From positions 1-55,891 of IMG/VR virus record IMGVR_UViG_3300009103_001352: a DNA stretch of 55,891 bases, one strand, 5' to 3'. The notes under the pieces are model-generated. The model did no database searches, was not told where the DNA came from, and saw only the letters and a program-made list of their open reading frames with translations. This document shows, in pieces, positions 2,742 to 53,623 of the stretch. Position 1 is the stretch's first letter. The number at the start of each line of letters is the position of its first letter. The position numbers were made by a program, and so were the translations under genes. This DNA comes from a virus.

Positions 2742-4073
2742 ATGTTTTTATCTGAAAACTTACAAGAAAAATGGGGTCCCGTTCTTGACCATCCTGATCT
2801 TCCTCAGATAAAAGATTCTTATAGAAAAGCAGTAACAGCTGTTTTACTTGAGAATGAGGAAAAATCAATCATGGAAGAAGGTGGTTCTTCTATTTTATTT
2901 GAAGCAGCTCCTGCAAACGCTGTTGGTGCCGGTATGGGTACTACAGCCGGAAATATTAAAGGTTATGATCCTGTACTTATTTCCCTAGTTCGCAGAAGTA
3001 TGCCTCTCTTAATCGCATACGATGTGTGCGGTGTTCAGCCTATGACAGGTCCGACTGGCTTGATTTTCGCCATGAAGTCCCGTTATTCCAGTCAAACTGG
3101 TTCAGAAGCACTTTTCAGTGAAGCTGATTCTGGTATTTCAGGTGGAAAAGCTGGCGCTTCTTCAGCACACACAGCTAATGGTAACCCAGCAGCTGCCGCT
3201 TCTAGTTCAACTGCATATCTCCCAGGTCGTGGAATGACTACGGCACTTGGTGAAGCACTTGGCGATTCGGCTTCCAATGCTTTCGCAGAAATGGCCTTCT
3301 CAATTGATAAGGTAACTGTTACAGCGAAGACACGTGCACTCAAAGGTGAGTACACAATGGAACTCGCTCAAGACTTGAAAGCAATTCATGGTCTTGATGC
3401 CGAAACTGAACTTTCCAACATTTTGAGTTCAGAGATTCTGGCAGAAATTAACCGCGAAGTTATCCGCACAATTTACGGTAACGCCAAAACTGGTGCCCAG
3501 AACAACGTAGCCACTGCCGGTACATTCGATATGGATGTAGATTCAAACGGTCGTTGGATGGTTGAAAAATTCAAGGGTCTGATGTTCCAGATTGAGCGCG
3601 AAGCTAATGCAATCGGGCACGACACTCGTAGAGGAAAAGGTAATATCCTTATGACTTCTTCAGATGTTGCTTCCGCACTGCAAATGGCTGGTGTACTTGA
3701 TTACACACCTGCTCTTTCCGGTAACGATTCCATTAATGTTGACGACACTCAGTCAACTTTTGCTGGAACACTTAACGGACGTTACAAAGTATATGTTGAT
3801 CCATATGCAACTATTCAAGACACCAACTGGTTCGTTCTTGGATATAAAGGTTCCAGTGCTTATGACGCCGGACTTTTCTACTGCCCATACGTTCCACTAC
3901 AAATGGTACGTGCGGTTGGTGAGAATAACTTCCAGCCAAAGATTGGATTCAAAACACGATACGGAATGGTATCGAATCCTTTCTCCACAGGAACAGCTGC
4001 TTCCAGTGATGGATCACTCACTTACAACACCAACGTTTATTACAGGCGATGTCTCGTTACAAACTTGATGTAA
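2742..4073 (+). CDS. 23: Major capsid protein gp23
   Basis: This 443-residue protein is the HK97-fold shell subunit of T4-like heads. Recognisable blocks include the RRSMPLLIAYDVCGVQPMTGPTGLIFAMKSRY region near residues 86-117, the DKVTVTAKTRALKGEYTMELAQDL region, and the C-terminal ARVG-type end with VYYRRCLVTNLM. A gp21-type cleavage site (hydrophobic-x-Glu) occurs at LFE54-Ala55, which would remove a propeptide of about 54 residues; T4 loses 65. The ribosome site AGGAG precedes ATG 2742. No exact TATAAATA lies directly upstream, so it probably uses the gene 22 promoter. It ends 28 bases before a terminator. Confidence 0.96.
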   Translation: MFLSENLQEKWGPVLDHPDLPQIKDSYRKAVTAVLLENEEKSIMEEGGSSILFEAAPANAVGAGMGTTAGNIKGYDPVLISLVRRSMPLLIAYDVCGVQPMTGPTGLIFAMKSRYSSQTGSEALFSEADSGISGGKAGASSAHTANGNPAAAASSSTAYLPGRGMTTALGEALGDSASNAFAEMAFSIDKVTVTAKTRALKGEYTMELAQDLKAIHGLDAETELSNILSSEILAEINREVIRTIYGNAKTGAQNNVATAGTFDMDVDSNGRWMVEKFKGLMFQIEREANAIGHDTRRGKGNILMTSSDVASALQMAGVLDYTPALSGNDSINVDDTQSTFAGTLNGRYKVYVDPYATIQDTNWFVLGYKGSSAYDAGLFYCPYVPLQMVRAVGENNFQPKIGFKTRYGMVSNPFSTGTAASSDGSLTYNTNVYYRRCLVTNLM

Positions 4074-4683: not shown

Positions 4684-4689
4684 AACATT

Positions 4690-12534: not shown

Positions 12535-12539
12535 AAAAA

Positions 12540-12647
12540 ATGTCAAAAAAGGAAAGGCGATTCAATAAGGAATTGGCCAATCAATATGTCGATGATGAAG
12601 TCGACGACTTCGAAGAAGAGGAATATGAGTACAGTAACCGAGAGTAA
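12540..12647 (+). CDS. Short acidic ORF between deformylase and queD
   Basis: A 35-residue ORF starts at ATG 12540, five bases after the deformylase stop. It has a basic start (MSKKERRFNKEL) and a very acidic end (VDDEVDDFEEEEYEYSNRE). It overlaps the queD start by 23 nt. It has no clear ribosome site of its own. Coupling to the upstream stop and the charge pattern make it plausible. No function is evident. Confidence 0.45.
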   Translation: MSKKERRFNKELANQYVDDEVDDFEEEEYEYSNRE

Positions 12648-13152: not shown

Positions 13153-13154
13153 AA

Positions 13155-14015
13155 ATGTCAAAAATTAGATATTCAGAATACTTTTATAGTATTCAAGGTG
13201 AAGGTAGATTTGTAGGTGTACCAAGTGTATTTTTAAGATTGTTTGGATGTAATTTTGAATGTCCGGGATTTGGACAGCCCAGAGGACAATTAATTCCACG
13301 TGATGATATGCCTTGGAAAAATCTTGACATTAGTCAATACAAAAGCATTGAGGAATTGCCTGTAATGAAAATAGGATGTGATAGTTCTGCTAGCTGGGCA
13401 AAAGAATATATGCATCTAACAACATTTGTAGAACATTTTGCTTTAGCTGAAATGCTAACCGAAATGCTTCCTGATAATAAATGGTTTTATGAAGAAAACA
13501 ATCAGGATATTCATTTAGTCATTACAGGTGGTGAACCAATGATGTGGCAAAAACAATTACCAGATTTATTGGATCATCCTTTACTTGAAAATATTAAAAA
13601 TATTACATTTGAAACAAATAGTACATTTGCTTTGACTGATAAGTTTTTTGAATGGTTATATAGATACAGTTTATATGATCATCACATTACGTGGTCATGC
13701 AGTCCAAAATTAAGTATAAGTGGTGAGGATTGGGATAAAGCAATTAAACCTGAAAATTGGGAACAATATAAAGAAATTCCTAATTCTCATTTATATTTAA
13801 AATTCGTAGTTCAAGATGAACAAGATATCGAAGAAATTAAATCAATAGATTTCGGACCATCTTGGAAGAATGATATTTATTTAATGCCATGCGGTGGAAC
13901 AGCTGAAATGTTAGATAACACTAAATTTAATGTTGCAGAAATCGCGATGAAACACGGTTTTAAATATTCACCCAGATTGCATGTAGATTTATTCGGAAAT
14001 AAGTGGGGTACTTAA
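13155..14015 (+). CDS. queE: QueE-like 7-carboxy-7-deazaguanine synthase (radical SAM)
   Basis: This 286-residue protein carries out the radical-SAM ring contraction that makes 7-carboxy-7-deazaguanine. The N-terminus (YSIQGEGRFVGVPSVFLRLFGCNFEC) is the QueE signature, and ITGGEPMMW is the SAM-binding GGEP motif. The iron-sulfur cysteines are unusual: Cys32 and Cys36 fit CxxxC, but the third ligand seems to be Cys75 in GCDSSASW, displaced by a 38-residue insertion instead of two residues. The CDS-type context after Cys75 matches what follows the last Cys in ordinary QueE. Paired with QueD, it suggests deazaguanine modification of phage DNA or of tRNA. Confidence 0.85.
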   Translation: MSKIRYSEYFYSIQGEGRFVGVPSVFLRLFGCNFECPGFGQPRGQLIPRDDMPWKNLDISQYKSIEELPVMKIGCDSSASWAKEYMHLTTFVEHFALAEMLTEMLPDNKWFYEENNQDIHLVITGGEPMMWQKQLPDLLDHPLLENIKNITFETNSTFALTDKFFEWLYRYSLYDHHITWSCSPKLSISGEDWDKAIKPENWEQYKEIPNSHLYLKFVVQDEQDIEEIKSIDFGPSWKNDIYLMPCGGTAEMLDNTKFNVAEIAMKHGFKYSPRLHVDLFGNKWGT

Positions 14016-27388: not shown

Positions 27389-27769
27389 ATGGCATATTCA
27401 AAAAAGGTAGTGGACCACTATGAACAACCGAGAAATGTGGGTTCTCTTAATTCCTCTGACAATAGTGTTGGTACTGGTCTTGTTGGAGCGCCTGAATGTG
27501 GCGATGTAATGAAACTTCAAATTGAAGTTAAAGATAATAAAATCGTTGATGCAAAATTTAAAACATTTGGGTGTGGCTCTGCTATAGCGGCGTCGTCATT
27601 AGCAACGGAATGGGTTAAAGGTCAATCTATTGATGAAGCTATGACAGTTAGCAATGTAGAAATTGTTGAAGAATTATCACTCCCACCAGTAAAAATTCAC
27701 TGTTCAGTTCTTGCGGAAGATGCTATTAAAGCAGCAATTGCAGATTATAAGGAAAAGCAGGCACTATGA
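27389..27769 (+). CDS. iscU: IscU-like iron-sulfur cluster scaffold protein
   Basis: A 126-residue scaffold on which Fe-S clusters are built. The three cluster Cys are present at Cys37 (PECGDVM, with the usual Asp39), Cys62 (FGCGSAIAASS) and Cys105 (KIHCSVLAEDAIKAA). The LPPVK motif at residues 98-102 is the site that the HscA chaperone binds. The length equals E. coli IscU (128). It is preceded by a late-type promoter and overlaps the next gene by 4 nt (ATGA). Together with two A-type carriers 1.6 kb downstream, it forms a phage Fe-S assembly set. No IscS or chaperone is in this window, so host partners are implied. Confidence 0.93.
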   Translation: MAYSKKVVDHYEQPRNVGSLNSSDNSVGTGLVGAPECGDVMKLQIEVKDNKIVDAKFKTFGCGSAIAASSLATEWVKGQSIDEAMTVSNVEIVEELSLPPVKIHCSVLAEDAIKAAIADYKEKQAL

Positions 27770-28965
27770 AAAAATTTAAAGAATATTTTAAACCAGTTCA
27801 GGAAAAAGAAGAACTTAAAGAAGAAGTTCTTGAAGAGGCTGTTTATTGGCAAGTATTAATTCCTGGTATATCAACTCCTGTTTTTATTGAAGGACCTGCA
27901 AAGTCAGGTATTAAAATGGAATTGAGAACGCAATTAAAACCGGAAGCTTGGAAGAATCTAATCATTAATAGAATCACGAAGCCTCAAATACGAAAAATAT
28001 ATAGGGATATGGCGAAAGATCCCGAAATGTATGATGATGCATCAGATGGTGTTAGTGAAGCTCTTGAAGAATCTACTGCATCATATGCAAAGTCTTTGGA
28101 AAAGATTGCTAGAGATAGACAATTAAAGATGCTCTCTAAATCTGAAAGACAAAATTTACTTAAAATAGCGGCACTCTTAGATAAAGAAAAAAAAGAAGAA
28201 GTTGAATTTGATGAGGGTATTATGGATACTGCGGGATTTCATAATTATCCAAAAAGAAATAAAGTGGGAGATGAAATAGAAAAAATTGCAAGTAAAGGTG
28301 GAACAGATAAATTCAACCTTTCAAAAGTTGCTTCTGAATTACAGAAGGGTAGAATCCCACATAAGTTTATTAAAAAACTCAGTCCAAAAGGTAAGAAAGC
28401 AGTTCATGATATTATGAAAGATTTTGGATGGAAAGAATTACCAGAAGATAATGAAGTAAATGAAGTTCCGTTCGTCCCGTTAGCTTTAGGAGCTGCGAGA
28501 ATAGGTGGAGCAATCTTAAAAGGTGTAGGGCGCGGAGCAGGCAGAATCGGCACAGCCGGAGCAGGATTTGGTTTAGGGCAAGCAGCGAATGCAATATCAA
28601 AAATACCAAGCTCTGTAGGTAAGGCAGTCGCAGGTGGTGTTGCAGCAGGGGCTACAAAAGCGGCAATTAGTCATCATTTATCAAATAAGGCTAAAGAGAA
28701 AGCAAAAAAAGATAAAGAAAAAAAAGAAGAGAGTAGAGAACCTAGAATTCATATGAAAGCAATTGATGAGAAAATGGCTGATAAGTATAAAGCAATGAAT
28801 AAAGCCGGTGATCAGATAATGAAACTCGCAAAAAAGTATAAATCATTTGATTTAACGAGTATCGCTTCTGAATTAAGAAAAGGCAAAATTCCAAAAATTA
28901 ATAAGTTAAAACCGAATGATTTTAAAGAAGTAGGTGCAATTTACGATAAACTGGGGTTGAGATAA
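27766..28965 (+). CDS. Large alpha-helical protein with duplicated domain and Gly/Ala-rich segment
   Basis: A 399-residue protein that I do not recognise by name. It begins MKKFKEYFKPVQEKEE, like other window proteins with a FK-x-F start. A helical domain near residues 165-220 (EIEKIASKGGTDKFNLSK, IPHKFIKKLSPKGKKAVHDIM) recurs near residues 345-399 (QIMKLAKKYKSFDLTSIASELRKGKIPKINKLKP). Between them a Gly/Ala-rich stretch of about 75 residues (residues 240-310, VPLALGAARIGGAILKG) could be membrane-inserting. A Lys/Glu tract follows. It may be an internal head protein ejected with DNA. It lies between IscU and the A-type carriers. Confidence 0.6.
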   Translation: MKKFKEYFKPVQEKEELKEEVLEEAVYWQVLIPGISTPVFIEGPAKSGIKMELRTQLKPEAWKNLIINRITKPQIRKIYRDMAKDPEMYDDASDGVSEALEESTASYAKSLEKIARDRQLKMLSKSERQNLLKIAALLDKEKKEEVEFDEGIMDTAGFHNYPKRNKVGDEIEKIASKGGTDKFNLSKVASELQKGRIPHKFIKKLSPKGKKAVHDIMKDFGWKELPEDNEVNEVPFVPLALGAARIGGAILKGVGRGAGRIGTAGAGFGLGQAANAISKIPSSVGKAVAGGVAAGATKAAISHHLSNKAKEKAKKDKEKKEESREPRIHMKAIDEKMADKYKAMNKAGDQIMKLAKKYKSFDLTSIASELRKGKIPKINKLKPNDFKEVGAIYDKLGLR

Positions 28966-29339
28966 TGAAATCATTTCGAACATTTATAAAAGTTGAAGGT
29001 TTAAATCATGATCGTTATATGAGATCTCATGGTAAAAAAGCCAAAGGTACAGGAAAGTGGGCATTTACCACTAAGAGAATGGGTGATGTAGATATGGGTA
29101 ATGATAAAGAGTTTTGGACGTCAGGCCCAAATCAATCTTTATCTAAAGCCGCTAAAGATGCTCAAAAAGCTTTACACACAAAAGATGTTTATGTAATGGA
29201 AAAATTAGGTAAAGATTCTACTATGGGCGATTATATTGATGATTTTAAAAAATCTGATGCACCACAATTTAAGGGTAGATCTAAAGAAAAACGAAAGCAA
29301 ATGGCTATTGCTGCCAAATTATCCGCAGACGAGAAATGA
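28965..29339 (+). CDS. Small head-type protein with FK-x-F start motif
   Basis: This 124-residue basic protein starts MKSFRTFIKVEGLNH, sharing the short FxxF motif with other proteins here. Its C-terminus (DDFKKSDAPQFKGRSKEKRKQMAIAAKLSADEK) is a motif I associate with small structural or head-packaged proteins of T4-like phages. The middle includes KWAFTTKRMGDVDMG. Its stop is followed one base later by the next start. A role as an internal or head-completion protein is possible but not shown. Confidence 0.55.
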   Translation: MKSFRTFIKVEGLNHDRYMRSHGKKAKGTGKWAFTTKRMGDVDMGNDKEFWTSGPNQSLSKAAKDAQKALHTKDVYVMEKLGKDSTMGDYIDDFKKSDAPQFKGRSKEKRKQMAIAAKLSADEK

Positions 29340-29699
29340 ATGATATCGTTTACAGAGAGGGCCGCCAACGTGGTACTCAAGATTATGGGCGAACAAAATG
29401 TTAGTCAAGAGACGTTTTGCAGAATAGGTGTAAAAGGTGGCGGATGTTCGGGATTTACTTATACTGTAGATTTTGATAGTAGAAAAAGTAAATTTGATTT
29501 AGAATTTGAAAGCCACGGGCTCACTTGCGTGGTAGATAAAAAAAGTCATTTATATATAAAAGGAACAGAAATAGATTGGTCTAATGATTTAAATGATCGC
29601 GGACTAAAGTTTAATAACCCATCTGCGAAAGGCAGTTGTGGTTGTAGAACATCATTTATGCACGAGGGAATGAATGCAGGAACACCAAGTTGGATGTGA
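29340..29699 (+). CDS. iscA: A-type Fe-S carrier (IscA/HesB-like), copy 1
   Basis: A 119-residue carrier that passes Fe-S clusters to target proteins. The family Cys are at Cys36 (GGGCSGFTY), Cys100 and Cys102 (GSCGCRTSF). The overall length and strand pattern match IscA, ErpA and HesB. It starts at ATG 29340 directly after the upstream stop. It overlaps the second carrier by 26 nt. It keeps all three cluster ligands. Confidence 0.92.
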   Translation: MISFTERAANVVLKIMGEQNVSQETFCRIGVKGGGCSGFTYTVDFDSRKSKFDLEFESHGLTCVVDKKSHLYIKGTEIDWSNDLNDRGLKFNNPSAKGSCGCRTSFMHEGMNAGTPSWM

Positions 29700-30075
29700 A
29701 CTTAAAATAACATTAAAAGCAGCAGTTGAATTTAAACAAATGTGTATTGCTGAAGATAAGCATTGGGTGGATTCATATTTAAGAGTAGGTGCCAAAGAAG
29801 GTGGTTGCTCAGGTTGGAAATATAGTTTAGATTACGAAGATACAGTTGACCCTACAGATGCGGTTTTTGAGCAACACGGAGTTAAAATGGTTGTTGATAA
29901 TGAGTTGCTAAATAATATAATGGGTGATGTTGAAGTAGATTATAAAATAGGAAATTTAGTTGAGCAGGGTTTTGTATTTAATCGCCTCAAATTCGGACAT
30001 CAATGTGGTTGTGGAGAAAGCTTTACACCACTTAAAGATATGAAAAACGGTAAAGAACAATTAGGCTGGCAATGA
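29674..30075 (+). CDS. A-type Fe-S carrier (HesB-like), copy 2
   Basis: A 133-residue protein with the same core as the previous gene: Cys45 (EGGCSGWKY), Cys111 and Cys113 (QCGCGESF). It has a longer N-terminus and a C-terminal extension (LKDMKNGKEQLGWQ). It differs markedly from copy 1 in the body, so it is a paralogue rather than a recent duplicate. It overlaps copy 1 by 26 nt and the next gene by 4 nt. It may serve different apo-protein targets than copy 1. Confidence 0.9.
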   Translation: MQEHQVGCELKITLKAAVEFKQMCIAEDKHWVDSYLRVGAKEGGCSGWKYSLDYEDTVDPTDAVFEQHGVKMVVDNELLNNIMGDVEVDYKIGNLVEQGFVFNRLKFGHQCGCGESFTPLKDMKNGKEQLGWQ

Positions 30076-35129: not shown

Positions 35130-35510
35130 ATGAACGCTGAAGAAGAAGAGATAGCTATACAAAAAGCTATCGAAGACGGAATTCCTATAATAAATGTCGG
35201 ACAGGAAGAAGATTATCAAATCGCCTTAGAAGTGTGGGGGAAATTTAAAGTTGTTTATCCAGATGGAAGAGAAGAGATTGTAGAAGGAAAGCATGCTTTT
35301 TGTACATGCGGTCTTTCTAGAACTAAACCATATTGTGATCAAACACATCAATGTTTTAGATCCGACCCAAGTGATCCAAGTAGATCTAAAGAAGTAAAAT
35401 GGGAATTTTTAACAAATAAAGAACGACACGATATAATGAACGGCATAAAAATTGACCATCTCAAAATTAAAGCTAGAGATGATGATCCCACATTTGATAG
35501 AGAAGCATGA
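35130..35510 (+). CDS. CDGSH-type [2Fe-2S] protein
   Basis: A 126-residue protein with one CDGSH iron-sulfur motif: Cys58, Cys60, Cys69 and His73 in FCTCGLSRTKPYCDQTH, spaced exactly as C-x-C-x8-C-x3-H in mitoNEET. The usual Gly in CDGSH is Gln here. The N-terminal acid region (AEEEEIAIQKAIED) and a beta segment (KFKVVYPDGREE) precede it. Such proteins transfer electrons or Fe-S clusters. It would be a natural target of the IscU/IscA set. It sits directly after an oxygenase that could need electrons. Confidence 0.88.
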   Translation: MNAEEEEIAIQKAIEDGIPIINVGQEEDYQIALEVWGKFKVVYPDGREEIVEGKHAFCTCGLSRTKPYCDQTHQCFRSDPSDPSRSKEVKWEFLTNKERHDIMNGIKIDHLKIKARDDDPTFDREA

Positions 35511-40331: not shown

Positions 40332-41364
40332 TGGTTGGGATCCGCTAAAAGAAGTAATAGTTGGTGACGCATCTAATGCTATAATTCCTTCATTTGAATT
40401 ATCCATGAAAAATTTCATGTATGCAAATTTAAGTGAAGAGCAAATTAATTCCATAACAGGTCCATATGATAAGCAAGTTATAGAAGAAACTAATGAGGAC
40501 TTGGAATTATTATGTAGAGTTTTAGAAAGTCAGGATATAAAAGTTTATAGACCAAAAAAGATTAATCATAAAAGAAGGTCTATGACTCCTCATTGGATTG
40601 CGCAGGGGTGGTGTACTTATTGTCCGCGTGATATATTTTTAGTACTAAATGATTGTATAATTGAAACGCCCAATGTTATGCGTAGCCGATATTTTGAGAT
40701 GCATGCATATAGACATATTTTGAATCAATGTAAAGGTAAATGGTTCTCCGCGCCTAGGCCTCAGTTATTAGATGAATCATTTAATTTTGATGATTTATCA
40801 AAACCAACATTGATGAATAAAGAAGCTCTTTTTGATGCTCCAAATGTTGTAAGAATGGGTAGAGACTTAATATATCAAGTGAGTAATAGCGGTAATGAAA
40901 AAGGAGGTGAATGGCTCCAATCAATGTTTCCGGAATATAAAATACATATAGAAAGAGAATCATATTCAGGAGCTCATTTTGATAGCACGGTGATACCATT
41001 AAGACCTGGATTAGTATTATTAAACGGTCAACGATGCACTCCAAAAAATTATCCGAAGATATTTAAGAATTGGGATAAAATATTCTTTACTGATATAGTA
41101 GATCAAGGTATCCCAAGTGCCGGCGGATCATCCAATGCCAGTGCAGCTATCTCATCACCTGCAATAGGATTAAACTTATTAAGTATTAATGAAAAAGTAT
41201 GTATTGTAGATGAAAATCAACTCCCTCTTATTACGAAATTAAGAGATCACAACATTGATGCAATCCCTATGCGTTTAAGACATGCAAAAACTTTAGGCGG
41301 AGGCTTTCATTGTGTAACATTAGATTTAAACAGAACTGGTACTTTACAACAGTATGACTTCTAA
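40312..41364 (+). CDS. Amidinotransferase (glycine/inosamine type, StrB1-like)
   Basis: This 350-residue enzyme transfers an amidino group from arginine to an amine. It starts GWDPLKEVIVGDASNA. The catalytic triad residues are Asp175 (LFDAPNVVRMGRD), His222 (GAHFDSTVIPLRPGLV) and the nucleophile Cys334 (LGGGFHCVTLDL). Length and motifs match glycine and scyllo-inosamine-phosphate amidinotransferases. The amine acceptor is unknown but the neighbouring DegT aminotransferase could supply an amino sugar or inosamine. It overlaps the radical SAM gene by 11 nt. Confidence 0.88.
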   Translation: MNIQSNNGWDPLKEVIVGDASNAIIPSFELSMKNFMYANLSEEQINSITGPYDKQVIEETNEDLELLCRVLESQDIKVYRPKKINHKRRSMTPHWIAQGWCTYCPRDIFLVLNDCIIETPNVMRSRYFEMHAYRHILNQCKGKWFSAPRPQLLDESFNFDDLSKPTLMNKEALFDAPNVVRMGRDLIYQVSNSGNEKGGEWLQSMFPEYKIHIERESYSGAHFDSTVIPLRPGLVLLNGQRCTPKNYPKIFKNWDKIFFTDIVDQGIPSAGGSSNASAAISSPAIGLNLLSINEKVCIVDENQLPLITKLRDHNIDAIPMRLRHAKTLGGGFHCVTLDLNRTGTLQQYDF

Positions 41365-43150
41365 ACGTATTGCGTTCGTAGAACTCTCACATATTTTTAC
41401 TAATCAGATTAAATTACCCTATTCTACGGGTTGTATCTGGAGTTATTGTAAAACTGATAAAGAGATTACCGATAGTTACTCTTTTGATGTTCATGATTGG
41501 ATATATGTTCTAGATGAAAATTTAGATATCAATAAAACTGCTAAACAATTATCAAAATGTGATGTTGTAGGTATTTCGTATTTTGTATGGAATACTCATG
41601 TTAGTGATAAGTTAGCTAAACAAATAAGATACATAAATCCTAAGTGTGTGATCATATATGGTGGATTAGGTATACCAAAATACGGTCGATGCGAAAAGTT
41701 TCTCAAAGACAGGCCTTATATCGACGTTATAGTACATAATGAAGGCGAGATAGTATTTAAGAATATATTGAAAGCTTTACATCGAAAAGAGGATTTAAGA
41801 AATGTTAAAGGAATCACAACACCTTTCTTTTCAACACCCTTAGAAGAAAGAGTAAAAGATATATCATCTATGCCTAGTCCATATCTTGATGGATTATTTG
41901 ATGATCTCCTAGCAATTAAAAATCATTCATATGAGTGGGAGAGTTTAGTAGAATTAGAACGAGGTTGTCCTTATACATGCACATTCTGCGAAGTTGGAGA
42001 TAGGCATTGGACGAAGATATTTAAACAGGATTATAATAAGTTAGTAAGAGAAATTGATTGGGTATCAGATAAGAAGATAGAGTATCTACATCTAATTGAT
42101 AATAACTTTGGTATGTATAAAGAGCAAAAAGTTATATCCGACTTACTTATAGATAAGTATAAATTGACTGGTTATCCTAATGCTCTTAATATAACGTGGG
42201 CAAAGCATAAGAAACCATTCTTATTTGATATAGCAGAAGATTTATGGAAGGTAGGGCTCAATAAGAGTGTTACGATCGCTCTACAGTCGATGAATTCTTC
42301 TACATTAAAAGCGATCGAAAGAGCAAATGAAAATACTAATTTAAGAGAGGTATTAGCAAATTTAAAATGGAGAGGTATGCCTGCTTATATAGAAACTATT
42401 CTCGGCCTACCAGAGGAATCATTAGATAGTTTTAAAGAAGGAATATATAGATTGATTGACGATATAAATTATCATAATTATATCGGCATATATGTAATGG
42501 TTGCATTACCTAATACTCCATTTGGCGATCCTGAATATCTCAAAAAATATAATGTACAAATAAAGCAAACATCCCCCGCATTTTTTCATCATGAAAATCC
42601 CCCAGATCAATTATTAGAAGAAGTCAATAACGTAGTCGTTGGATCTAACAGTATGACATTTGATGATTACTTAGAAGCAACAGGGTGGAAGTGGTTTATG
42701 ATATCTCTACATTTTTTAGGATGGCTTAGAATATTAGCATTAGAATTAAAAAATAATCATAACATATCAATGAGAGAGTTTTATAACGGATTATTCGAAT
42801 GGTTTATTAATAATGATCAAACATTATTGTATAGAGAATATACAATTACAATGAGAATGTTAAAGAAAGTGTTTAATAGAGAGATTCCATGGGGTCGTAA
42901 AGTATCGGATGTTTCTAATATATACTGGGAGTATGAAGAAGCCACAGCAATACACATTGCTAAAGAAAAGAATCGTTTCTATGGAGAGATAGAAGATTAT
43001 TTAAAAGAAGAATATGGATTTAATTATTCTATAACAACGAATCAATATAACAAGATGAAAGACCCTTACGAAGTCTATAACGGCGATTTAGAAAAATGGG
43101 CTCGTGAATGCATGTGGTGGGGTCGAAGAGCGGAGAGGTTTTTCGTATGA
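41354..43150 (+). CDS. B12-binding radical SAM enzyme
   Basis: A 598-residue protein with an N-terminal cobalamin-binding Rossmann domain (IAFVELSHIFTNQIKL, VVGISYFVWN, VIIYGGLGIPKY). The radical SAM core has Cys205, Cys209 and Cys212 in RGCPYTCTFCEVGDRHW. YLHLIDNNFGMY and the ETILGLPEES strand follow. The B12 His motif is not certain. Such enzymes methylate or rearrange unactivated carbons, or modify sugars. It overlaps the copy 3 glycosyltransferase by 4 nt and the amidinotransferase by 11 nt. Its substrate is unknown. Confidence 0.85.
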   Translation: MTSKRIAFVELSHIFTNQIKLPYSTGCIWSYCKTDKEITDSYSFDVHDWIYVLDENLDINKTAKQLSKCDVVGISYFVWNTHVSDKLAKQIRYINPKCVIIYGGLGIPKYGRCEKFLKDRPYIDVIVHNEGEIVFKNILKALHRKEDLRNVKGITTPFFSTPLEERVKDISSMPSPYLDGLFDDLLAIKNHSYEWESLVELERGCPYTCTFCEVGDRHWTKIFKQDYNKLVREIDWVSDKKIEYLHLIDNNFGMYKEQKVISDLLIDKYKLTGYPNALNITWAKHKKPFLFDIAEDLWKVGLNKSVTIALQSMNSSTLKAIERANENTNLREVLANLKWRGMPAYIETILGLPEESLDSFKEGIYRLIDDINYHNYIGIYVMVALPNTPFGDPEYLKKYNVQIKQTSPAFFHHENPPDQLLEEVNNVVVGSNSMTFDDYLEATGWKWFMISLHFLGWLRILALELKNNHNISMREFYNGLFEWFINNDQTLLYREYTITMRMLKKVFNREIPWGRKVSDVSNIYWEYEEATAIHIAKEKNRFYGEIEDYLKEEYGFNYSITTNQYNKMKDPYEVYNGDLEKWARECMWWGRRAERFFV

Positions 43151-44846: not shown

Positions 44847-45143
44847 ATGTACAAACCGCTTCCACACAATATTACAATTAAAGAATCTCCCATTGAAGGC
44901 TTAGGCCTTTTCGCAACAGAAAAAATTACAGCACAAACATTGATTGGAATCACTCATCACGCTGATGAGCGAGCGGAAGATGGGTGGATTAGAACTCCTT
45001 TAGGCGGCTTTGGAAATCATTCGGACGATCCCAACTGCTTCAAACTTTTAATGGACCCCAAAACTTTTTGGATTGGAGCTAATCGAGATATTAAACCTGG
45101 AGAAGAACTGACGTGGAGCTATACATTATATAAATGTGACTAA
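44847..45143 (+). CDS. SET-domain protein methyltransferase (minimal)
   Basis: A 98-residue protein built of SET-domain blocks only: EGLGLFATEKI (residues 17-27), GGFGNHSDDPNCFKL (residues 53-67, matching the NHSCxPN motif), and GEELTWSYTLY (residues 85-95, with the catalytic Tyr). It lacks pre-SET and post-SET cysteines and most of the SET-I insert, so it is among the shortest possible forms. SET enzymes methylate Lys of proteins. A target could be the Lys-rich protein at 7910, but that is conjecture. Confidence 0.8.
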   Translation: MYKPLPHNITIKESPIEGLGLFATEKITAQTLIGITHHADERAEDGWIRTPLGGFGNHSDDPNCFKLLMDPKTFWIGANRDIKPGEELTWSYTLYKCD

Positions 45144-45165
45144 ACATTTATACGGAGAAAAGAAG

Positions 45166-45666
45166 ATGCCGATACACAAGCATTTACTTGTCCGCGCAGA
45201 AGTAAAGCGCCCGATCACAGAAGAAAAAGAAATTAAAAAATGGTTAAAAAAATTAGTAAATAAAATTGATATGAAAATCATTAAGGGTCCTTTCGCAGGC
45301 TACGTTCATAAGGATGGAAACCGCGGATTGACAGGCGCCGTAATGATAGAAACAAGTCATATATCAATACATATTTGGGATGAACCAGACCCAGCATTAG
45401 TACAATTTGATGTTTATTCATGCGCGGAATATTCTACTAATGAAGTTTTAGCAGAACTTATAATAATGGAACCAGTTAAAGTTGAACACATGCTTATAGA
45501 TAGAGATAGTAAACCAGAGGACATTAAACCAGGTCTTTATGGTAGTTGTTTTAAAATGACAAATCATTCAGTTTCTGAACACAAATCACATCCAAAAATA
45601 CAAAAATATGATGATGAAGAGCGAAAAGAAATAATCAGAAAAGGTTATATATCTAGTTACGAATAA
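45166..45666 (+). CDS. speD: S-adenosylmethionine decarboxylase (SpeD) proenzyme
   Basis: A 166-residue proenzyme-type protein. The motif VMIETSHISIHIWDEP (residues about 59-74) matches the self-cleavage site, where Ser64 becomes the pyruvoyl group; the preceding Glu is Thr here. VQFDVYSCAEYSTNEVL carries the conserved Cys86. I place the start at ATG 45166, after GGAGAAAAG; a GTG at 45136 is in frame but would start inside the SET stop overlap. The product, decarboxylated SAM, feeds spermidine synthesis. No spermidine synthase is visible in the window. Confidence 0.8.
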   Translation: MPIHKHLLVRAEVKRPITEEKEIKKWLKKLVNKIDMKIIKGPFAGYVHKDGNRGLTGAVMIETSHISIHIWDEPDPALVQFDVYSCAEYSTNEVLAELIIMEPVKVEHMLIDRDSKPEDIKPGLYGSCFKMTNHSVSEHKSHPKIQKYDDEERKEIIRKGYISSYE

Positions 45667-48138: not shown

Positions 48139-48678
48139 ATGGATTTATTAAAACATACATACAGCAATCTATCCCCTTATAAAAATCACGAGCAAAAATT
48201 ATATAAGAAGGGCGACAACTGGTATAAAGAAGTCCGTGAAGGATATTTCGATGATTTTGATATTGAAGCCTTACGTACATATATCGAAGTATATGATTTT
48301 ATAGACCCTCCAATAACATTGGAATTGGAAGACGGTGTTTTTAAATATGAATGTAGAGACTTATCTAAGACACATAAACAACTCATAGATATCCCATATA
48401 ATCGTCAAATCAAAATTCTCGGTAAATTGTTATCAGAGGTAATGCATTCTTTTTTAGAGTTCTCTGAAGCAAGAGGGAAAGTAGATATTCCAACGCCCAG
48501 TAATCCAACAGGAAAAAAAATTTTTTGTCACAGAGACTTAGCTTTTCATAATATCTATGTCGCTGGTGATGATATTAAACTAATAGATATTGATTCGTTT
48601 ATGTGGACTAACAGAGGCGATTTCAAATCCTACTATCAATATACTCTTTTAAGATTGGCACAGCATTTTGATCACTAA
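48139..48678 (+). CDS. Compact APH/choline-kinase-like phosphotransferase
   Basis: A 179-residue kinase-like protein. The catalytic motif is CHRDLAFHNIYV (His131, Asp133, Asn138), and LIDIDSF carries the metal-binding Asp near residues 150-152. The N-lobe is shortened to about 90 residues, whereas aminoglycoside phosphotransferases are near 270. It may phosphorylate a sugar alcohol or small molecule, or be a pseudoenzyme. It overlaps the next radical SAM gene by 11 nt. Confidence 0.75.
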   Translation: MDLLKHTYSNLSPYKNHEQKLYKKGDNWYKEVREGYFDDFDIEALRTYIEVYDFIDPPITLELEDGVFKYECRDLSKTHKQLIDIPYNRQIKILGKLLSEVMHSFLEFSEARGKVDIPTPSNPTGKKIFCHRDLAFHNIYVAGDDIKLIDIDSFMWTNRGDFKSYYQYTLLRLAQHFDH

Positions 48679-49798
48679 ACCTTGCCTAGCACCTTTTAAC
48701 TCAATTTTTCATAATTATGATGGTGCTACTTCTGTATGCTGTCACAGACCTGTTGAGATCACAGGTAAGACCCTACACGAGAGCATGCACGATGAGAAAC
48801 TACAAGCAATAAGAAGAAGTTTCGCTAAAGGAGAGACACCTCCAGAGTGTCGGTTATGTCCTAAGCAGATGAGAGAGTATCATACTGAGAATATCTCTAA
48901 GAATATTAAAAGTATTTCATTAGAAAATAAGTTCACTCCAGTAGCTGTAGATTTCTTCTGGTCTAATAAGTGTAATTTCGCATGCTTAGGGTGTGATAGT
49001 TATAAGAGCTCAACAATTGATAAGAATTTTAGAGAGATATATGAGATAATAGATCATCAGAGGCCTGTTCCTAATATAGGATATGATAAGCAAGAGAGAT
49101 TTGATTATATACTAGAAAATTCCGACAGTATTAGAATAATGCATTTATCGAGTTCCGGAGAACCATGGATTGAAGATAATATCTATGAGTTATTAGAGCT
49201 CTTAGTAGAGCATAAGTTATTTAACATTGAAATAGCGACCCATACTAATGGAAGTATATTGAATTATAAGAATAAGAGTATGATTGATATATTAGATAAT
49301 TGGAATGGTAACGCACATGTTATAATGAGTAATGACGGTACAGGAAAAAGAGGAGAGTATGTCAGATATGGTTATAAAGATAAAATGTGGTTAAGGACGT
49401 ATAATAAACTAAAAGAATCTAGCATTAACGTATATGTTCACTACTGTATGAACTTATTCAATATAATGTATCTCAGAGAAGATGCGGAATGGTTTAAAGA
49501 GAATTGTGATGATACTGATATACTCTTAAGATATTGGGAATGGCCTTCTTTATTAACGTCTAAGTTTTTAAAATATTGGGGTGATTTGTATGACGAATCA
49601 ATTGATTCATTCAATAGCGCGAAATCCTATTATAAGGATTCGGAGTATGCTGAAGATTACCTAAATACTATAGGGAGAGGAAATAATTTTAAAGATGATG
49701 TTTCGCGATTTAGTTCATTTATACAGAAGATAGATGAAAAAAGAAATACTGATTTTGTAAAAACTTTTCCAAAGTTGAATGAGATTGTTTTATGGTAG
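48668..49798 (+). CDS. Radical SAM protein with N-terminal Cys-rich SPASM-like segment
   Basis: A 376-residue protein whose start is TTG 48668 (read as Met). The N-terminal part carries CLAPF, VCCHRP and CRLCPKQM, Cys clusters of the SPASM or twitch type. The radical SAM CxxxCxxC is Cys102, Cys106, Cys109 in NKCNFACLGCDS. LSSSGEPWIE and THTNGSIL follow. Such proteins often modify peptides or sugars. The upstream gene overlaps it by 11 nt and the nitroreductase overlaps its end by 7 nt. The substrate is unknown. Confidence 0.75.
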   Translation: MITKPCLAPFNSIFHNYDGATSVCCHRPVEITGKTLHESMHDEKLQAIRRSFAKGETPPECRLCPKQMREYHTENISKNIKSISLENKFTPVAVDFFWSNKCNFACLGCDSYKSSTIDKNFREIYEIIDHQRPVPNIGYDKQERFDYILENSDSIRIMHLSSSGEPWIEDNIYELLELLVEHKLFNIEIATHTNGSILNYKNKSMIDILDNWNGNAHVIMSNDGTGKRGEYVRYGYKDKMWLRTYNKLKESSINVYVHYCMNLFNIMYLREDAEWFKENCDDTDILLRYWEWPSLLTSKFLKYWGDLYDESIDSFNSAKSYYKDSEYAEDYLNTIGRGNNFKDDVSRFSSFIQKIDEKRNTDFVKTFPKLNEIVLW

Positions 49799-50472
49799 AT
49801 AATTTAAAAGAGATTATTCACAAATCTCAAATATGTCAAAGAAATTGGGATTTGAGTGAAGAGATCCCTCAAGAGCATGTTGATTTAATTGTAGAAGCAG
49901 TTACACAAAGCCCCACCCGTCAAAATATCCCGTTCTATAATGTAGATGTTGTTACAGACAGATCTTTAATCAACAGTATCCATAATAATTCTGCTTTTTT
50001 TAAAATTAAACCAGGTATGGAGTTATCAGAATATTCTCACGCTGTCGTTAGGGGTTCAGATGTAGAGAAGGATGAAGATGGTGTTATCACAAAAACTAAT
50101 CCTCAAGTGCTAGCTCCCTTATTACTTGTTTTTAGTGCTAATGAAGAGACTTATTACGATAATCAGTTACGACATGGTAAAGACTCTGCGGAACGTGTTA
50201 AGTGGGAAAAAGACGTAAGCCTTTCTATAGGCGTAGCATCTGGATTTGCAAAACTAATATCTACACAATTAGGATATGTAAGTGGTTTTTGCGCTTGTTA
50301 TGGTGAAGAAATAGATAAACTAATAGGATCTTCGGTACGGTTATTTCTTGGGATAGGAAAGCCTGATAAAAACAAGAAATATACAGAGAGTCATATTGAG
50401 GAATTTGAATATCCCAGCTTTAAAGATGTAAAGAGATTAAAACCTGTAAAAGTAGAGTGGCATAATGGCTAA
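49792..50472 (+). CDS. Nitroreductase-family flavoprotein
   Basis: A 226-residue FMN-type oxidoreductase. The start RNWDLSEEIPQEHVDLIVEAVTQSPTRQNIPFYNVDVVTD is the nitroreductase N-terminal signature, with the R-x-x-D and S-P-T binding turns. Later SLSIGVASGFAKLISTQLGYVSGF forms the dimer helix. It overlaps the next small selenoprotein-like gene by 8 nt, so the two are translationally coupled. A shared redox role is plausible. Substrate unknown. Confidence 0.85.
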   Translation: MVDNLKEIIHKSQICQRNWDLSEEIPQEHVDLIVEAVTQSPTRQNIPFYNVDVVTDRSLINSIHNNSAFFKIKPGMELSEYSHAVVRGSDVEKDEDGVITKTNPQVLAPLLLVFSANEETYYDNQLRHGKDSAERVKWEKDVSLSIGVASGFAKLISTQLGYVSGFCACYGEEIDKLIGSSVRLFLGIGKPDKNKKYTESHIEEFEYPSFKDVKRLKPVKVEWHNG

Positions 50473-50698
50473 ATGGAAAATCAGATATTGTAGTTCTTGA
50501 AACTACAAACCGAACGCAGAAAGTCTTTCTGCTGAAATGAAAAAATTAGGTTATGACGTTGAAATTGAACAAGGAGATACTGGACAATTTGAGCTATTTA
50601 AATGGTCCACCACATTGTGGATGTCATTTATGAAAGGTGGACATGGAAAGTTCTTTGGAATACAGGAAGTGACGGAGGCATTAACTAATACGGAGTAA
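50465..50698 (+). CDS. SelW/Rdx-family selenoprotein with in-frame TGA (Sec)
   Basis: The frame runs ATG 50465 to TAA 50696-50698 (77 residues plus stop) with one in-frame TGA at 50498-50500, codon 12. Around it is IRYCSS-TGA-NYKPNAESL, the Rdx/SelW pattern in which a strand is followed by C-x-x-U. Downstream GDTGQFELF and MKGGHGKFFGIQEV match the family G-x-F-E and S-K-K-G-x-F-P positions. The TGA replaces the second redox Cys exactly, so Sec is the natural reading. The frame then stays open for 65 more codons. It overlaps the nitroreductase by 8 nt. A thiol-redox role is expected for the family. A Trp or stop reading is the alternative, but TGA is used as stop throughout this window. Confidence 0.88.
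50516..50532 (+). promoter_or_regulatory. Candidate bacterial SECIS hairpin
   Basis: Within the selenoprotein-like gene, 15 bases after the TGA, GCAGAA (50516-50521) pairs with TTCTGC (50527-50532) around the loop AGTCT, or with one more A-T pair around GTC. The loop resembles the GGUCU loop of the E. coli fdhF element, has a G among its first two bases, and lies 21 bases after the TGA. This fits the spacing reported for bacterial SECIS elements. Confidence 0.7.
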
Positions 50699-50700
50699 AT

Positions 50701-51129
50701 ATGGTTTTTGGACTTGGAGATCAAGAAGAACAGAGAACTAAAGAATTATTTGTAAGTAAGAATTTTAAATCACATTCAGGATTAGACTTAACATGGAAAA
50801 TAGAGATGGACGCGTTAATGGATTCCGAATGGTTTACGATCAAGAAAATGATCATGGAGATAACACCTCCTTTTAGAGAAGCAGTCGGTATTCCACGTGG
50901 TGGAGTTAAGCTCGGCAATCTTCTCAACGAACACGCAACAGGGAAAAAAGAAGATCCTATTTGTATAGTAGATGATGTATTAACTACAGGTGAGTCAATG
51001 GAAGAATTTTTAACACAATATCAACGTAATCGCGAACCATTTACAGCGATCGGTTGGGTAGTATTTGCGAGAACACAATGTCCGTCATGGGTAAACGCGG
51101 TATTTCAAATGCCATATTTAGCTGTATAG
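50701..51129 (+). CDS. pyrE: Orotate phosphoribosyltransferase-like protein (PyrE-like)
   Basis: A 142-residue PRTase. The PRPP-binding motif ICIVDDVLTTGESM lies at residues 87-100, and VGIPRGGVKLGNLL at residues 62-75 fits the PRPP loop. The N-terminal KNFKSHSGLDLTWKIEMDAL resembles the F-x-L-x-S-G substrate turn of orotate PRTase. Usual PyrE has about 210 residues, so it is compact. The neighbouring PyrD and PyrF homologues support orotate as substrate. It ends inside the lipoprotein gene region (43-nt overlap). Confidence 0.78.
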   Translation: MVFGLGDQEEQRTKELFVSKNFKSHSGLDLTWKIEMDALMDSEWFTIKKMIMEITPPFREAVGIPRGGVKLGNLLNEHATGKKEDPICIVDDVLTTGESMEEFLTQYQRNREPFTAIGWVVFARTQCPSWVNAVFQMPYLAV

Positions 51130-51497
51130 TATTAATGATTACCAGTTGTACTATGTGGAAGCATATTCAAGATAGTAGTGATTATTTAGAAACTGGATAT
51201 ATGCCATGTCCAGAAGGCGAGAAGTGCTTAGACTTGACATCAAGAATGGGTGGATTAGAAGGAGATATTTTTAAAACACTACCACCCATAAAAGGTTGGA
51301 AACAAATGGGATGCGTGCATTCTAAGCAAATAGATTATGAGATGAAAGAAGAATTTATGTATTGTGAATATTGTAATGGAAAACATCAGATGTGGATGAT
51401 ATATGATTATGACTGGGAGGGTAAATACGGAGTTCCAGATTGGTATCCTCATACACCAGATAATACAGAATGCGGCGATCCACCATTTATTAAATGA
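51087..51497 (+). CDS. Putative lipoprotein with Cys-rich domain
   Basis: A 136-residue protein with a lipoprotein signal: MGKRGISNAIFSCIVLMITSC, with lipobox ITS-Cys at residue 21. The mature part has CPEGEKCLD, MGCVHSKQ and MYCEYCNGKHQMWM, which suggest disulfides or metal binding, then WYPHTPDNTEC. I start at ATG 51087 (or 51078), which lies inside the PyrE-like gene by 43 nt; the frame is different. It overlaps the PyrD-like gene by 4 nt. The function is unknown. Confidence 0.6.
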   Translation: MGKRGISNAIFSCIVLMITSCTMWKHIQDSSDYLETGYMPCPEGEKCLDLTSRMGGLEGDIFKTLPPIKGWKQMGCVHSKQIDYEMKEEFMYCEYCNGKHQMWMIYDYDWEGKYGVPDWYPHTPDNTECGDPPFIK

Positions 51498-52189
51498 AAA
51501 TATATATCGCGGCTCCATTCGGGAACTATATACGAATCAAAAATACTATTAGTGTCAAGGGAACTTTCACGTTAAAGCGTCGTCGTGGTCTCATTCTTCA
51601 AATCTTAAAAACTCTACGATATAGCTTTAAAGACAAGTGTTGGTATAATAGCTTAGGACTTAGAAATCCAGGAATTACAAAAGGCATTCACAGAATAAAA
51701 AAAGACGACTATATATCTATCGCTGCTGTAGAACCAGGTGATTGGATTGAACTAGATAAACATATTCCTCAACAGGTTCCAATTGAACTCAATATTTCAT
51801 GTCCTAACATAACTCACTTCGATGACTACATCAGAGATATACACATATATGCTAAGCGCAATCCGATTGTTAAAATATCAGCGGAAACCAACTTCGCGGA
51901 AATAGACAGATTAATAGATATGGGCTTCGCTAGATTTCATTGTTGTAATACACTCAAAACAGATAAGGGAGCTCAAAGCGGTAAGGTATTACAAGAATAT
52001 GTATTTGAGAAAATCAAGTATATAAAGAACAAAAATCGACATATCGAGTGCATAGCAGGAGGAGGAATAGATTCGATAGATGATATGATGTATTACGCTA
52101 CGTTAGGAGTTCAGGGATTTTCACTAGGATCTGTTTGTTTTAATCCATTTAAATTACGTAAAATTCTCCTTGATTTTTTCGGAAAATAA
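51494..52189 (+). CDS. pyrD: Dihydroorotate dehydrogenase-like protein (PyrD, class 1)
   Basis: A 231-residue TIM-barrel flavoprotein. The motif NSLGLRNPGI near residue 52 and PIELNISCPNITHF near residue 97 are diagnostic; Cys103 in NISCPN is the catalytic base of class 1 enzymes. HCCNTLKTDKGAQSGKVL and the FMN-phosphate block IAGGGIDSIDDMMYYATLGVQGFSLGS follow. Normal length is about 310, so the N-terminal barrel part is shortened. It overlaps the lipoprotein gene by 4 nt. It would oxidise dihydroorotate to orotate. Confidence 0.85.
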   Translation: MKIYIAAPFGNYIRIKNTISVKGTFTLKRRRGLILQILKTLRYSFKDKCWYNSLGLRNPGITKGIHRIKKDDYISIAAVEPGDWIELDKHIPQQVPIELNISCPNITHFDDYIRDIHIYAKRNPIVKISAETNFAEIDRLIDMGFARFHCCNTLKTDKGAQSGKVLQEYVFEKIKYIKNKNRHIECIAGGGIDSIDDMMYYATLGVQGFSLGSVCFNPFKLRKILLDFFGK

Positions 52190-52198
52190 TCGTATAAT
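52170..52198 (+). promoter_or_regulatory. Sigma-70-type promoter TTGATT-17-TATAAT
   Basis: TTGATT at 52170-52175 and TATAAT at 52193-52198 are 17 bases apart and overlap the end of the PyrD-like gene. The start near 52205 would lie about three bases before ATG 52208, so the message would be nearly leaderless. Confidence 0.7.
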
Positions 52199-52207
52199 AA
52201 CTTCATT

Positions 52208-52621
52208 ATGAGATCGAACAAGTGGAATATTAGTTGGCAGGTTGCTCGAGTCAGAGCAAAGAAAATTAAAGACATTCAGATGAGAGTGGATTTCATGCAC
52301 GAGTGGTTGCTGATTCACAATTATAGAGTTAATATCGATAGGATAGCAAATTGGTTACGAATGTCTATAATGAGTGCTAACTATGAATCAAAAGAGATTT
52401 ATAAAAAAGCTTTTCGCAGGCTCTTAGAAGTGCAGAATCTCGAAGAAGGAGATATGCCGAACGATGTGAAAGCTTACGTGCGCGATCCGATAATAGAAGA
52501 CGTTCTCAAAGATCTAGAACAACGAACATACAGTTTTCAATTTAAAAAACTGCCACCAGGACACTATGAATTTATTAAAAGGATAAAAGATGTACTCGGC
52601 CCAAATCAAACAATCAATTGA
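52208..52621 (+). CDS. Hypothetical protein, helical, basic
   Basis: A 137-residue protein. The N-terminal half (WNISWQVARVRAKKIKDIQMRVDFMHEWLLIHNYRVNIDRIANWLRMSIM) is basic and helical, maybe a winged-helix-like region. The C-terminal part (RDPIIEDVLKDLEQRTYSFQF, LPPGHYEFIKRIKDVLG) is mixed. It sits between PyrD- and PyrF-like genes under its own promoter. It overlaps the next gene by 32 nt. No name can be given. Confidence 0.55.
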   Translation: MRSNKWNISWQVARVRAKKIKDIQMRVDFMHEWLLIHNYRVNIDRIANWLRMSIMSANYESKEIYKKAFRRLLEVQNLEEGDMPNDVKAYVRDPIIEDVLKDLEQRTYSFQFKKLPPGHYEFIKRIKDVLGPNQTIN

Positions 52622-52937
52622 AAAACTAGCACAGACAACATCTGATGCATTTGACATAATCATGTATAGGATGCTAGACGCACCGGAAAAACCGTCTCAG
52701 GATGACTTGATGGCGATGATTATGGGTGCTAAAGAATTACACGAATCACACTGCATGCGTGTGATGGAGACTATCAAAGAATGGCCTGGAAAGTCCGCAA
52801 GGAATATATTAGCGACTACGCCGGTGAAGGAAGACAAGAAATATACAGACGAAATCGAAGAGGAAATGTTCTCTAAGCCGCTTAAAAAGATGCCTATAGA
52901 TAAGGCTGAACAAGCAATCGACTATCAGTCTATATGA
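52590..52937 (+). CDS. Hypothetical helical protein
   Basis: A 115-residue helical protein (QSIEKLAQTTSDAFDIIMYRM, MIMGAKELHESHCMRVMETIKEW) with an acidic C-terminus. It overlaps the upstream gene by 32 nt and the PyrF-like gene by 4 nt. No motif is recognised. Confidence 0.55.
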   Translation: MYSAQIKQSIEKLAQTTSDAFDIIMYRMLDAPEKPSQDDLMAMIMGAKELHESHCMRVMETIKEWPGKSARNILATTPVKEDKKYTDEIEEEMFSKPLKKMPIDKAEQAIDYQSI

Positions 52938-53623
52938 AATTAATTCTATCATTAGAACAACCAAAGCACTTTCTAGTAGCAGAAAAAATACAAGACTATG
53001 TAGATGGATGGAAAATAAATCACATAGGATATAGCATAGCAGATCGCGAACGCTCTCACGACTGGTGGGCTAGATTAGAACGCTATAGACTAGCTAGAAA
53101 GAAGGAACTATTCGTCGACTTCAAGCTTTGGGACACACCAAACACGATGAAAATGGTCTTAGAACACGTCCTCAGAATGGGCGCAACAATGACCACTATA
53201 AGTACGTACAACAATCCCGCAGCTTTAGAAGCAGTCTCCGAATTCAAGGATGACATCAAACTACTAGGAGTTACATATCTCACATCTTGGTCAGATCAGG
53301 AACAGTACAACGTGACACGCGATATGGAACCCATTATGTGGAGAAGAGCTATAGAGAGAATGCTAGAATATAAATTCGCAGGAGTTATTTCAAGTGCTCA
53401 CGATATTCATTACATTAGACAGTGGGGAGATCCGGACAAAAAACTACTAAACATCTGTCCAGGAATAACAGTAGAAACACCAGATGGATTACCGTTCCAT
53501 TCAGGTCAAGTTCGCACAACTAGCATTCAGGAAGCAAAATCACTAGGAGCAGATTATATAGTATTAGGACGAGCAGTAACAGAAAGCCATGATCCAGAAT
53601 TGACAATCAAAGCCATGTTATGA
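52934..53623 (+). CDS. pyrF: Orotidine-5-phosphate decarboxylase (PyrF)
   Basis: A 229-residue TIM-barrel enzyme. The catalytic D-x-K-x-x-D is Asp62, Lys64 and Asp67 in LFVDFKLWDTPNTM. KLLNICPGITVETPDG and the phosphate-binding ADYIVLGRAVTESHDP complete the signature. It decarboxylates OMP to UMP. Length is normal. It overlaps both neighbours by 4 nt. With the PyrE- and PyrD-like genes it supplies the last steps of pyrimidine synthesis. Confidence 0.92.
   Translation: MKLILSLEQPKHFLVAEKIQDYVDGWKINHIGYSIADRERSHDWWARLERYRLARKKELFVDFKLWDTPNTMKMVLEHVLRMGATMTTISTYNNPAALEAVSEFKDDIKLLGVTYLTSWSDQEQYNVTRDMEPIMWRRAIERMLEYKFAGVISSAHDIHYIRQWGDPDKKLLNICPGITVETPDGLPFHSGQVRTTSIQEAKSLGADYIVLGRAVTESHDPELTIKAML

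Follow-up and report, generated by a model that had tools for sequence, protein, structure and literature searches.

The stretch of viral DNA analysed here, 55,891 nt long and hereafter termed the window (positions 1 to 55,891 of IMG/VR record IMGVR_UViG_3300009103_001352), carries a selW-like gene of the Rdx family with a single in-frame TGA that almost certainly codes for selenocysteine (Sec). Taken together, the results make it very probable that the gene specifies a phage selenoprotein of the Rdx/SelW type with a redox role, decoded with the help of a hairpin resembling bacterial SECIS elements (bSECIS) and of Sec machinery from the host, which is most probably a bacterium of the SAR324 type. 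This supports the sequence-only reading of the window, which had proposed a phage-encoded SelW/Rdx selenoprotein. The record is considered to represent a T4-like phage of marine type, the T4 affinity being assigned because it encodes the major capsid protein gp23, which matches 2505 phage records with a best identity of 66.6%. The features on which the argument depends are collected in Table 1.

Table 1. Coordinates, within the window, of the selW-like gene, its predicted recoding signals and the genes used to place it.
Feature	Coordinates	Strand	Remarks
T4-type major capsid protein gp23	2742..4073	+	marks the record as a T4-like phage
Radical SAM protein, upstream	48668..49798	+	NCBIfam NF033640, 190.5 bits, cut-off 170
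Upstream gene	49792..50472	+	weak nitroreductase match only (phrog_18935, E 0.0037)
selW-like (Rdx) gene	50465..50698	+	77 codons plus stop; one in-frame TGA, predicted to be read through
In-frame TGA, codon 12	50498..50500	+	predicted selenocysteine in C-S-S-U
Bacterial-SECIS-like hairpin	50516..50532	+	arms 50516-50522 and 50526-50532; loop GUC 50523-50525
Downstream gene	50701..51129	+	starts 2 nt past the selW stop; its phosphoribosyltransferase matches are weak and sub-threshold

In bacteria, SelB acting on a SECIS hairpin brings Sec-tRNA(Sec) to UGA codons. In the mechanism proposed here, a ribosome would reach the UGA at codon 12 of the phage selW mRNA, where the downstream hairpin of the same transcript, serving as a bacterial SECIS element, would recruit host SelB with its Sec-tRNA(Sec); selenocysteine would then enter the C-x-x-U motif, allowing completion of a thioredoxin-like fold. 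The phage would supply the selW gene and its hairpin and the host the Sec machinery, the product being a small selenol/thiol oxidoreductase active during infection.

The gene forms a single frame of 78 codons, MAKWKIRYCSS-U-NYKPNAESLSAEMKKLGYDVEIEQGDTGQFELFKWSTTLWMSFMKGGHGKFFGIQEVTEALTNTE, closed by a TAA at 50696-50698. The sequence-only reading had given this frame, its coordinates and a U at position 12 of 77 residues, had placed the TGA in the Sec/Cys column of the C-x-x-U motif, and had excluded general recoding of TGA; each of these points was borne out, the lone TGA being codon 12, the motif reading C-S-S-TGA and the Rdx match persisting even with this residue masked. TGA serves as a regular stop in the window: on the plus strand, 60 ORFs reach 100 codons or more (a few lie across larger ORFs and could be spurious), and these end in TAA (32), TGA (25) or TAG (3), with 270 TGG codons. 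A sequencing error at the TGA is unlikely because an identical gene (234 of 234 bases) is found in IMGVR 3300009104_000009, an 83.9 kb contig from a near-twin phage; across 10.2 kb, the two show only 13 mismatched positions and 3 gap openings. The selW start codon precedes the end of the upstream gene by 8 nt, and on account of this overlap the two are probably co-translated; with the 2 nt gap on its other side, selW is spaced as in a tightly packed set of genes. Neither the overlap nor the hairpin had featured in the sequence-only reading. The upstream gene itself has no hit in Pfam or NCBIfam.

With Cys at residue 12, the protein matched the Pfam Rdx family (PF10262) at 31 bits (E 3e-7), and with that residue masked as X at 23.9 bits (E 5e-5), in both cases above the gathering cut-off of 22.6; a Pfam search of the whole record returned Rdx at 22.8 bits. 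The match covers residues 5-68 of the whole protein, such that the Rdx layout originally recognised before and after the TGA was recovered as a single similarity spanning the codon, and the segment after the TGA, searched alone against Pfam, gave no hit. Other members of the window subtype straddle the cut-off at 19.5-23.4 bits, with three of them (L006, L034 and L045) falling below it at 19.5-20.9 bits. The NCBIfam cut-offs for the SelT/SelW/SelH families were missed by the window protein (24.4 against 34.2 bits for TIGR02174, and 40.1 against 88 for NF041051), and for this reason it is classified here as a divergent subtype within Rdx rather than under these models. The window SelW protein had no PHROG family at E values up to 0.01, and its model no match in a library of viral structures at E values up to 0.001.

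Rdx/SelW proteins are characterised by a C-x-x-U or C-x-x-C redox motif following the first strand. In the AlphaFold model of the window protein, built from a 16-sequence alignment with a mean pLDDT of 91.2, C9-S-S-U12 directly follows a strand at residues 3-8, and both C9 and U12 are invariant in alignments A1 and A6. The top Foldseek match was 2fa8 (E 7e-4), and re-alignment of 996 chains (VIA) ranked 3dex, 2ojl, 2fa8, 2oka, 2obk and 2p0g highest, at Z scores of 9.2-10.1, followed by a next row at 7.2 and with mouse SelW (2npb) at 6.2. Two of these six structures are titled SelW-related (2fa8 and 2p0g) and one putative Se-binding (2obk); the others, 3dex, 2ojl and 2oka, presumably belong to the same family. 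The predicted fold is thioredoxin-like and closest to those of solved SelW-related proteins.

The likely origin of the Sec machinery is suggested by cellular relatives of the gene. A genome scan with the part of the protein following the TGA, using one narrow pattern, found a single such relative, on contig CACIWU010000065.1 from the single-cell genome of an uncultured SAR324 bacterium. That gene is of the same subtype, has the same TGA and an identical 17 nt hairpin, and encodes a protein 53% identical to that of the window in alignment A6 (44% over the post-TGA part), but is cellular whereas the window gene is phage-borne. Searching the single-cell genome with Pfam families missed it (0/1), but an alignment profile found it at 90.4 bits; as a protein it scores 23.2 bits against Pfam Rdx. 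The contig fits a SAR324 chromosome, since a neighbouring gene on it shares 83% and 82% identity with genes from two further genomes of this phylum. Among 52 genomes in the phylum of the single-cell genome, here the SAR324 phylum, a search with the A1 profile that did not require TGA found matches in 35, with one TGA inside each of the 36 matches listed; in all 25 of the matches inspected, the TGA occupied the C-x-x-U position, and most had a similar hairpin.

These genomes also appear equipped to decode such genes. Matches to selB over the cut-off were present in 48 of the 52, against 2 of 14 controls, and to tRNA-Sec in 42 of the 52, the latter a soft tally given that 5 of 14 controls also passed; full-length 95 nt tRNA-Sec matches consequently carry more weight, and the SAR324 single-cell genome contains one (56.4 bits) as well as selB. 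By comparison, neither selB nor a tRNA-Sec over the cut-off was found in any of 22 phage records, many of which are fragments. Seven of the 22 had weak tRNA-Sec candidates of 72-82 nt (best 41.9 bits, cut-off 47), which were taken to be ordinary tRNAs, and ARAGORN found no tRNA in the window. In a tree of 40 SelW proteins, based on 74 columns and with many forks lacking resolution, the window subtype, comprising 13 phage sequences and that of the single cell, formed one side of a branch with 100/100 support, while the phage genes L004 and L032 grouped with ordinary SAR324-phylum SelW. As far as these sequences indicate, this would fit at least two transfers of selW between phages and cells.

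That the selenoprotein is as proposed but the host is some other Sec-decoding bacterium is possible, though we consider it rather unlikely. The phage capsid gene gp23 was found in none of the 52 SAR324-phylum genomes, in a search that had no positive control; the second phage subtype, represented by L032, passes the NCBIfam SelTWH_Campy cut-off (100 against 88 bits), such that phages of several hosts may carry selW; and the cellular relative came from a scan of narrow scope. Set against this, the only cellular gene of the same subtype to emerge from that scan was the one from the SAR324 single cell, on the well-supported branch with the 13 phages. We infer that a SAR324-type bacterium is the likely host. 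Relatives of the window OMP decarboxylase were present in 10 of the 52 genomes, at only 29-33% identity, and neither this search nor that for the capsid protein added weight to the SAR324 assignment.

The codon at position 12 proved to be uniform among viral relatives. A DNA pattern accepting TGA, TGC or TGT at this position recovered 44 stretches of viral contigs, of which the 17 judged by reading to be Rdx-like all had TGA, and a profile scan using peptide patterns without a TGA requirement likewise found TGA in 17 of 17 viral relatives. When two patterns of the same form were compared, classifying stretches as Rdx-like with a profile in which the codon-12 residue was masked, the TGA version yielded 87 stretches, 78 of them Rdx-like, and the TGY (TGC/TGT) version eight, none of them Rdx-like. 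The 78 IMG/VR contigs, which include the near-twin of the window and were found by a pattern that itself fixed TGA, encode 58 distinct proteins by their last 60 residues. Alignment of phage relatives had been suggested as a means of finding Cys in this column, and a plain stop there had been named as counter-evidence; neither was seen in the 78 contigs, in the 17 loci of the profile scan that left the codon open or in the 36 listed matches from the SAR324 phylum. The selW genes of the 78 contigs terminate in TAA (48), TGA (17) or TAG (11), with two cut short, so that UGA keeps its function as a terminator among them. The accompanying suggestion that selenoproteins are rare in phages needs qualifying: among viral contigs, genes of this type cannot be called rare, but no phage selenoprotein was described among the matches listed in a literature search covering few subscription journals and no preprints.

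The viral status of many of these 78 contigs rests on the call made by IMG/VR itself, as gp23 was present in few records: 7 of 23, one of the 23 being a bacterial genome and one of the hits weak, and 1 of 26 further records. For some contigs, viral origin is supported by a baseplate wedge match (L209) or by matches to phage-family ribonucleotide reductases (RNRs; L129, L136, L158 and L159); of 19 large ORFs tested from the neighbourhood of selW, 8 lacked any match in PHROGs. Neither three SelW variants (by tblastn) nor 10 kb of the window found a counterpart in a set of 50,697 phage records, the former giving no match and the latter no near match. A third phage SelW subtype, SIRYC-x-x-U-NYLPHATRL, has its own version of the hairpin (L145:410-451 and L146:9622-9663). 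The TGA pattern also matches a recurrent arginine-rich frame that is not Rdx-like, in L102, L116, L119, L120, L149, L150, L156, L160 and L168.

The hairpin, GCAGAAA-GUC-UUUCUGC, is a perfect 7 bp stem beginning 15 nt past the UGA, with 22 nt from UGA to loop. Perfect hairpins of 7 bp with 3 nt loops number eight on the plus strand of the window (shuffle mean 5.9), and this is the only one of the eight to begin 15 nt after any TGA. In an alignment of 15 viral rows, pairing was seen in 97.1% of the 105 cells and double changes numbered 10, compared with 1.4 in shuffles; adding 25 rows from the SAR324 phylum gave 96.1% of 259 cells paired and 50 double changes against 14.5, and 48 different rows of exclusively viral origin gave 90.2% of 336 and 70 against 21.1. 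In all three tests, sliding the partner column by 1-3 positions reduced pairing to 27-67%. Two cruder measures did not rise above the shuffles, namely how many pairs showed a double change, a value reached by 69 of 500 shuffles with 40 rows and by 498 of 500 with 48, and the further pair types, reached by 254 of 500 with the 48 viral rows. Judging by the double changes, the hairpin is kept by compensatory substitution. The codons GAA AGT CTT within it are constant in ten genes compared, despite high synonymous divergence elsewhere, and the loop, by alignment column, starts with G followed by U or G in all 78 viral contigs.

Limits for bSECIS elements are set out in the accessible portion of a 2026 review as a loop of 3-9 nt, an upper stem of 4-16 bp, a G in the first two loop positions, 16-37 nt from UGA to loop and a minimum free energy of -7.5 kcal/mol or lower (PMC13188914). 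The window hairpin resembles these published elements in stem length, small loop with an early G and UGA spacing, falling within four of the five limits, but differs in its energy of -7.3 kcal/mol, which falls 0.2 short. Of the 40 viral and SAR324-phylum rows, 34 lie within the first four limits, 30 within that on energy and 26 within all five; in L004, the hairpin is not the best fold of its piece. Folding of the window piece alone is modest (z -2.25, with 5 of 200 shuffles equally good). From its geometry, the hairpin would act like a bSECIS, though outside the energy limit of the published model. A covariance model of the hairpin (R1), run against 22 sources at E values up to 1, returned 24 matches, of which 22 lay at SelW sites and the other two were weak (E 0.33 and 0.82), giving no convincing second element of this kind in those sources, and Rfam found nothing in the window at its gathering score.

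The sequence beyond the TGA evolves as a coding region. Estimates of dN/dS downstream of the codon were 0.23-0.49 in eight of nine pairs involving the window gene, the ninth being saturated, and 0.12-0.59 in seven of nine for codons past the hairpin, values of 0.0 representing saturated pairs that were left out; selection after the TGA is, by this estimate, purifying. Such constraint would also be expected if UGA stood for a different amino acid, for instance Trp, whether by ordinary near-cognate readthrough or under a code altered throughout the phage, since plain readthrough likewise yields the full protein. This is nevertheless very improbable, as TGA terminates 25 of the 60 long ORFs in the window and 17 of the 78 selW genes, and here lies in precisely the Cys/Sec column of the family and is followed by a covarying hairpin of SECIS geometry. 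Least credible of all is a degenerate gene copy in which the TGA is a true stop and the similarity beyond it a remnant, or in which a short protein is made from the ATG at 50537, because, despite a 53-residue ORF beginning there and the lack of a Pfam hit to the post-TGA part alone, TGA is found in 17 of 17 loci of the profile scan that left the codon open, a second contig has the identical gene, dN/dS is low both after the TGA and beyond the hairpin, and alignment A1 has invariant residues on either side of the TGA, including upstream of that ATG. Selenocysteine is the reading of codon 12 preferred here.

Other genes of note are found elsewhere in the window. Pyrimidine-type genes occupy 50701-53623, consisting of the weak phosphoribosyltransferase match, a dihydroorotate-dehydrogenase-like protein and an OMP decarboxylase, the latter two also occurring together in L003 and L051. 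Iron-sulphur genes are found at 27389-30075 and 35130-35510 (NifU_N, two Fe-S_biosyn proteins and a CDGSH protein), and relatives of the NifU_N and both Fe-S_biosyn genes lie near selW in several other phage contigs; one short phage contig has two relatives of the NifU-like gene (L054:68-463 and 4571-5017). A SET-domain protein at 44847-45143 has relatives 61-75% identical in L003, L014 (two copies), L051 and L058; an S-adenosylmethionine decarboxylase is encoded at 45136-45666. A radical SAM protein at 41354-43150 has a sub-threshold B12-binding match, and peptide deformylase, QueD-like and QueE-like genes lie in a row at 11962-14015, all scoring under NCBIfam cut-offs.

A thiol/selenol redox role is implied by the fold and motif, and phage SelW might act either as the reductant for an enzyme, the best candidate being a B12-dependent RNR, or in protection from oxidants. 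In 18 of the 78 contigs, several of them near-copies, selW is preceded within 4 kb, on its own strand, by a gene belonging to one RNR cluster, and it is this arrangement that makes SelW a candidate reductant of the phage RNR, proximity being weak evidence. Among the cluster members, those in L129, L136 and L159 have matches to the RNR family of PHROGs; the Pfam B12-dependent insertion domain is present in those of L129 and L159 and in the more distant RNR of L158, all three of which score under the NCBIfam RTPR cut-off. None of the window proteins that were scanned was identified as an RNR. A part in protection from oxidants would be equally possible. As a broader and distinctly tentative proposal, selenium-dependent phages could be widespread in the sea, with a strictly Sec-containing SelW that has no Cys versions, carried by several T4-like and other lineages infecting Sec-decoding hosts, serving as the phages' own source of electrons for making DNA precursors with a B12-dependent RNR; if true, replication of such phages would depend on the selenium supply of the host.

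Phage selW genes are easily missed because standard gene callers end them at the TGA; once recognised, the combination of TGA and hairpin narrows the hosts of unassigned phages to Sec-decoding bacteria. The viral selenoproteins in the literature found are poxvirus enzymes of animal cells. If bacteriophages do have a selenoprotein family, some of them would rely on the selenium metabolism of their hosts, and selenocysteine would join what phages take from the host translation apparatus.

The words 'phage', 'virus' and 'viral' are absent from the main text of the 2026 bSECIS review (PMC13188914). Molluscum contagiosum and fowlpox viruses are described, in the available part of one article, as encoding glutathione peroxidase selenoproteins (PMC8310308); like the window selW, these would be selenoprotein genes acquired by a virus, but they belong to a different protein family and to eukaryotic viruses using eukaryotic SECIS elements. 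A link between phages and selenocysteine is shared with reports of phage tRNA-Sec genes, for which the available excerpts describe no accompanying selenoprotein (PMC6145125, PMC10747093); those concern predicted tRNAs, whereas here a selenoprotein gene is found with no phage tRNA-Sec over the cut-off. A viral L-seryl-tRNA selenium transferase has also been reported, according to an excerpt of a further article (PMC5513705). SelW-like proteins are a leading marine selenoprotein family in the accessible part of a survey of the GOS data, which counted 427 Sec and 56 Cys forms (PMC2398784). With the Rdx (PF10262) or bacterial SelW-like selenoproteins, the window protein has in common a C-x-x-U motif at the start of a predicted thioredoxin-like fold, and it differs from them in being phage-encoded and of a divergent subtype (IKYCGSUNYKPQAESLSAEM...GQFELF).
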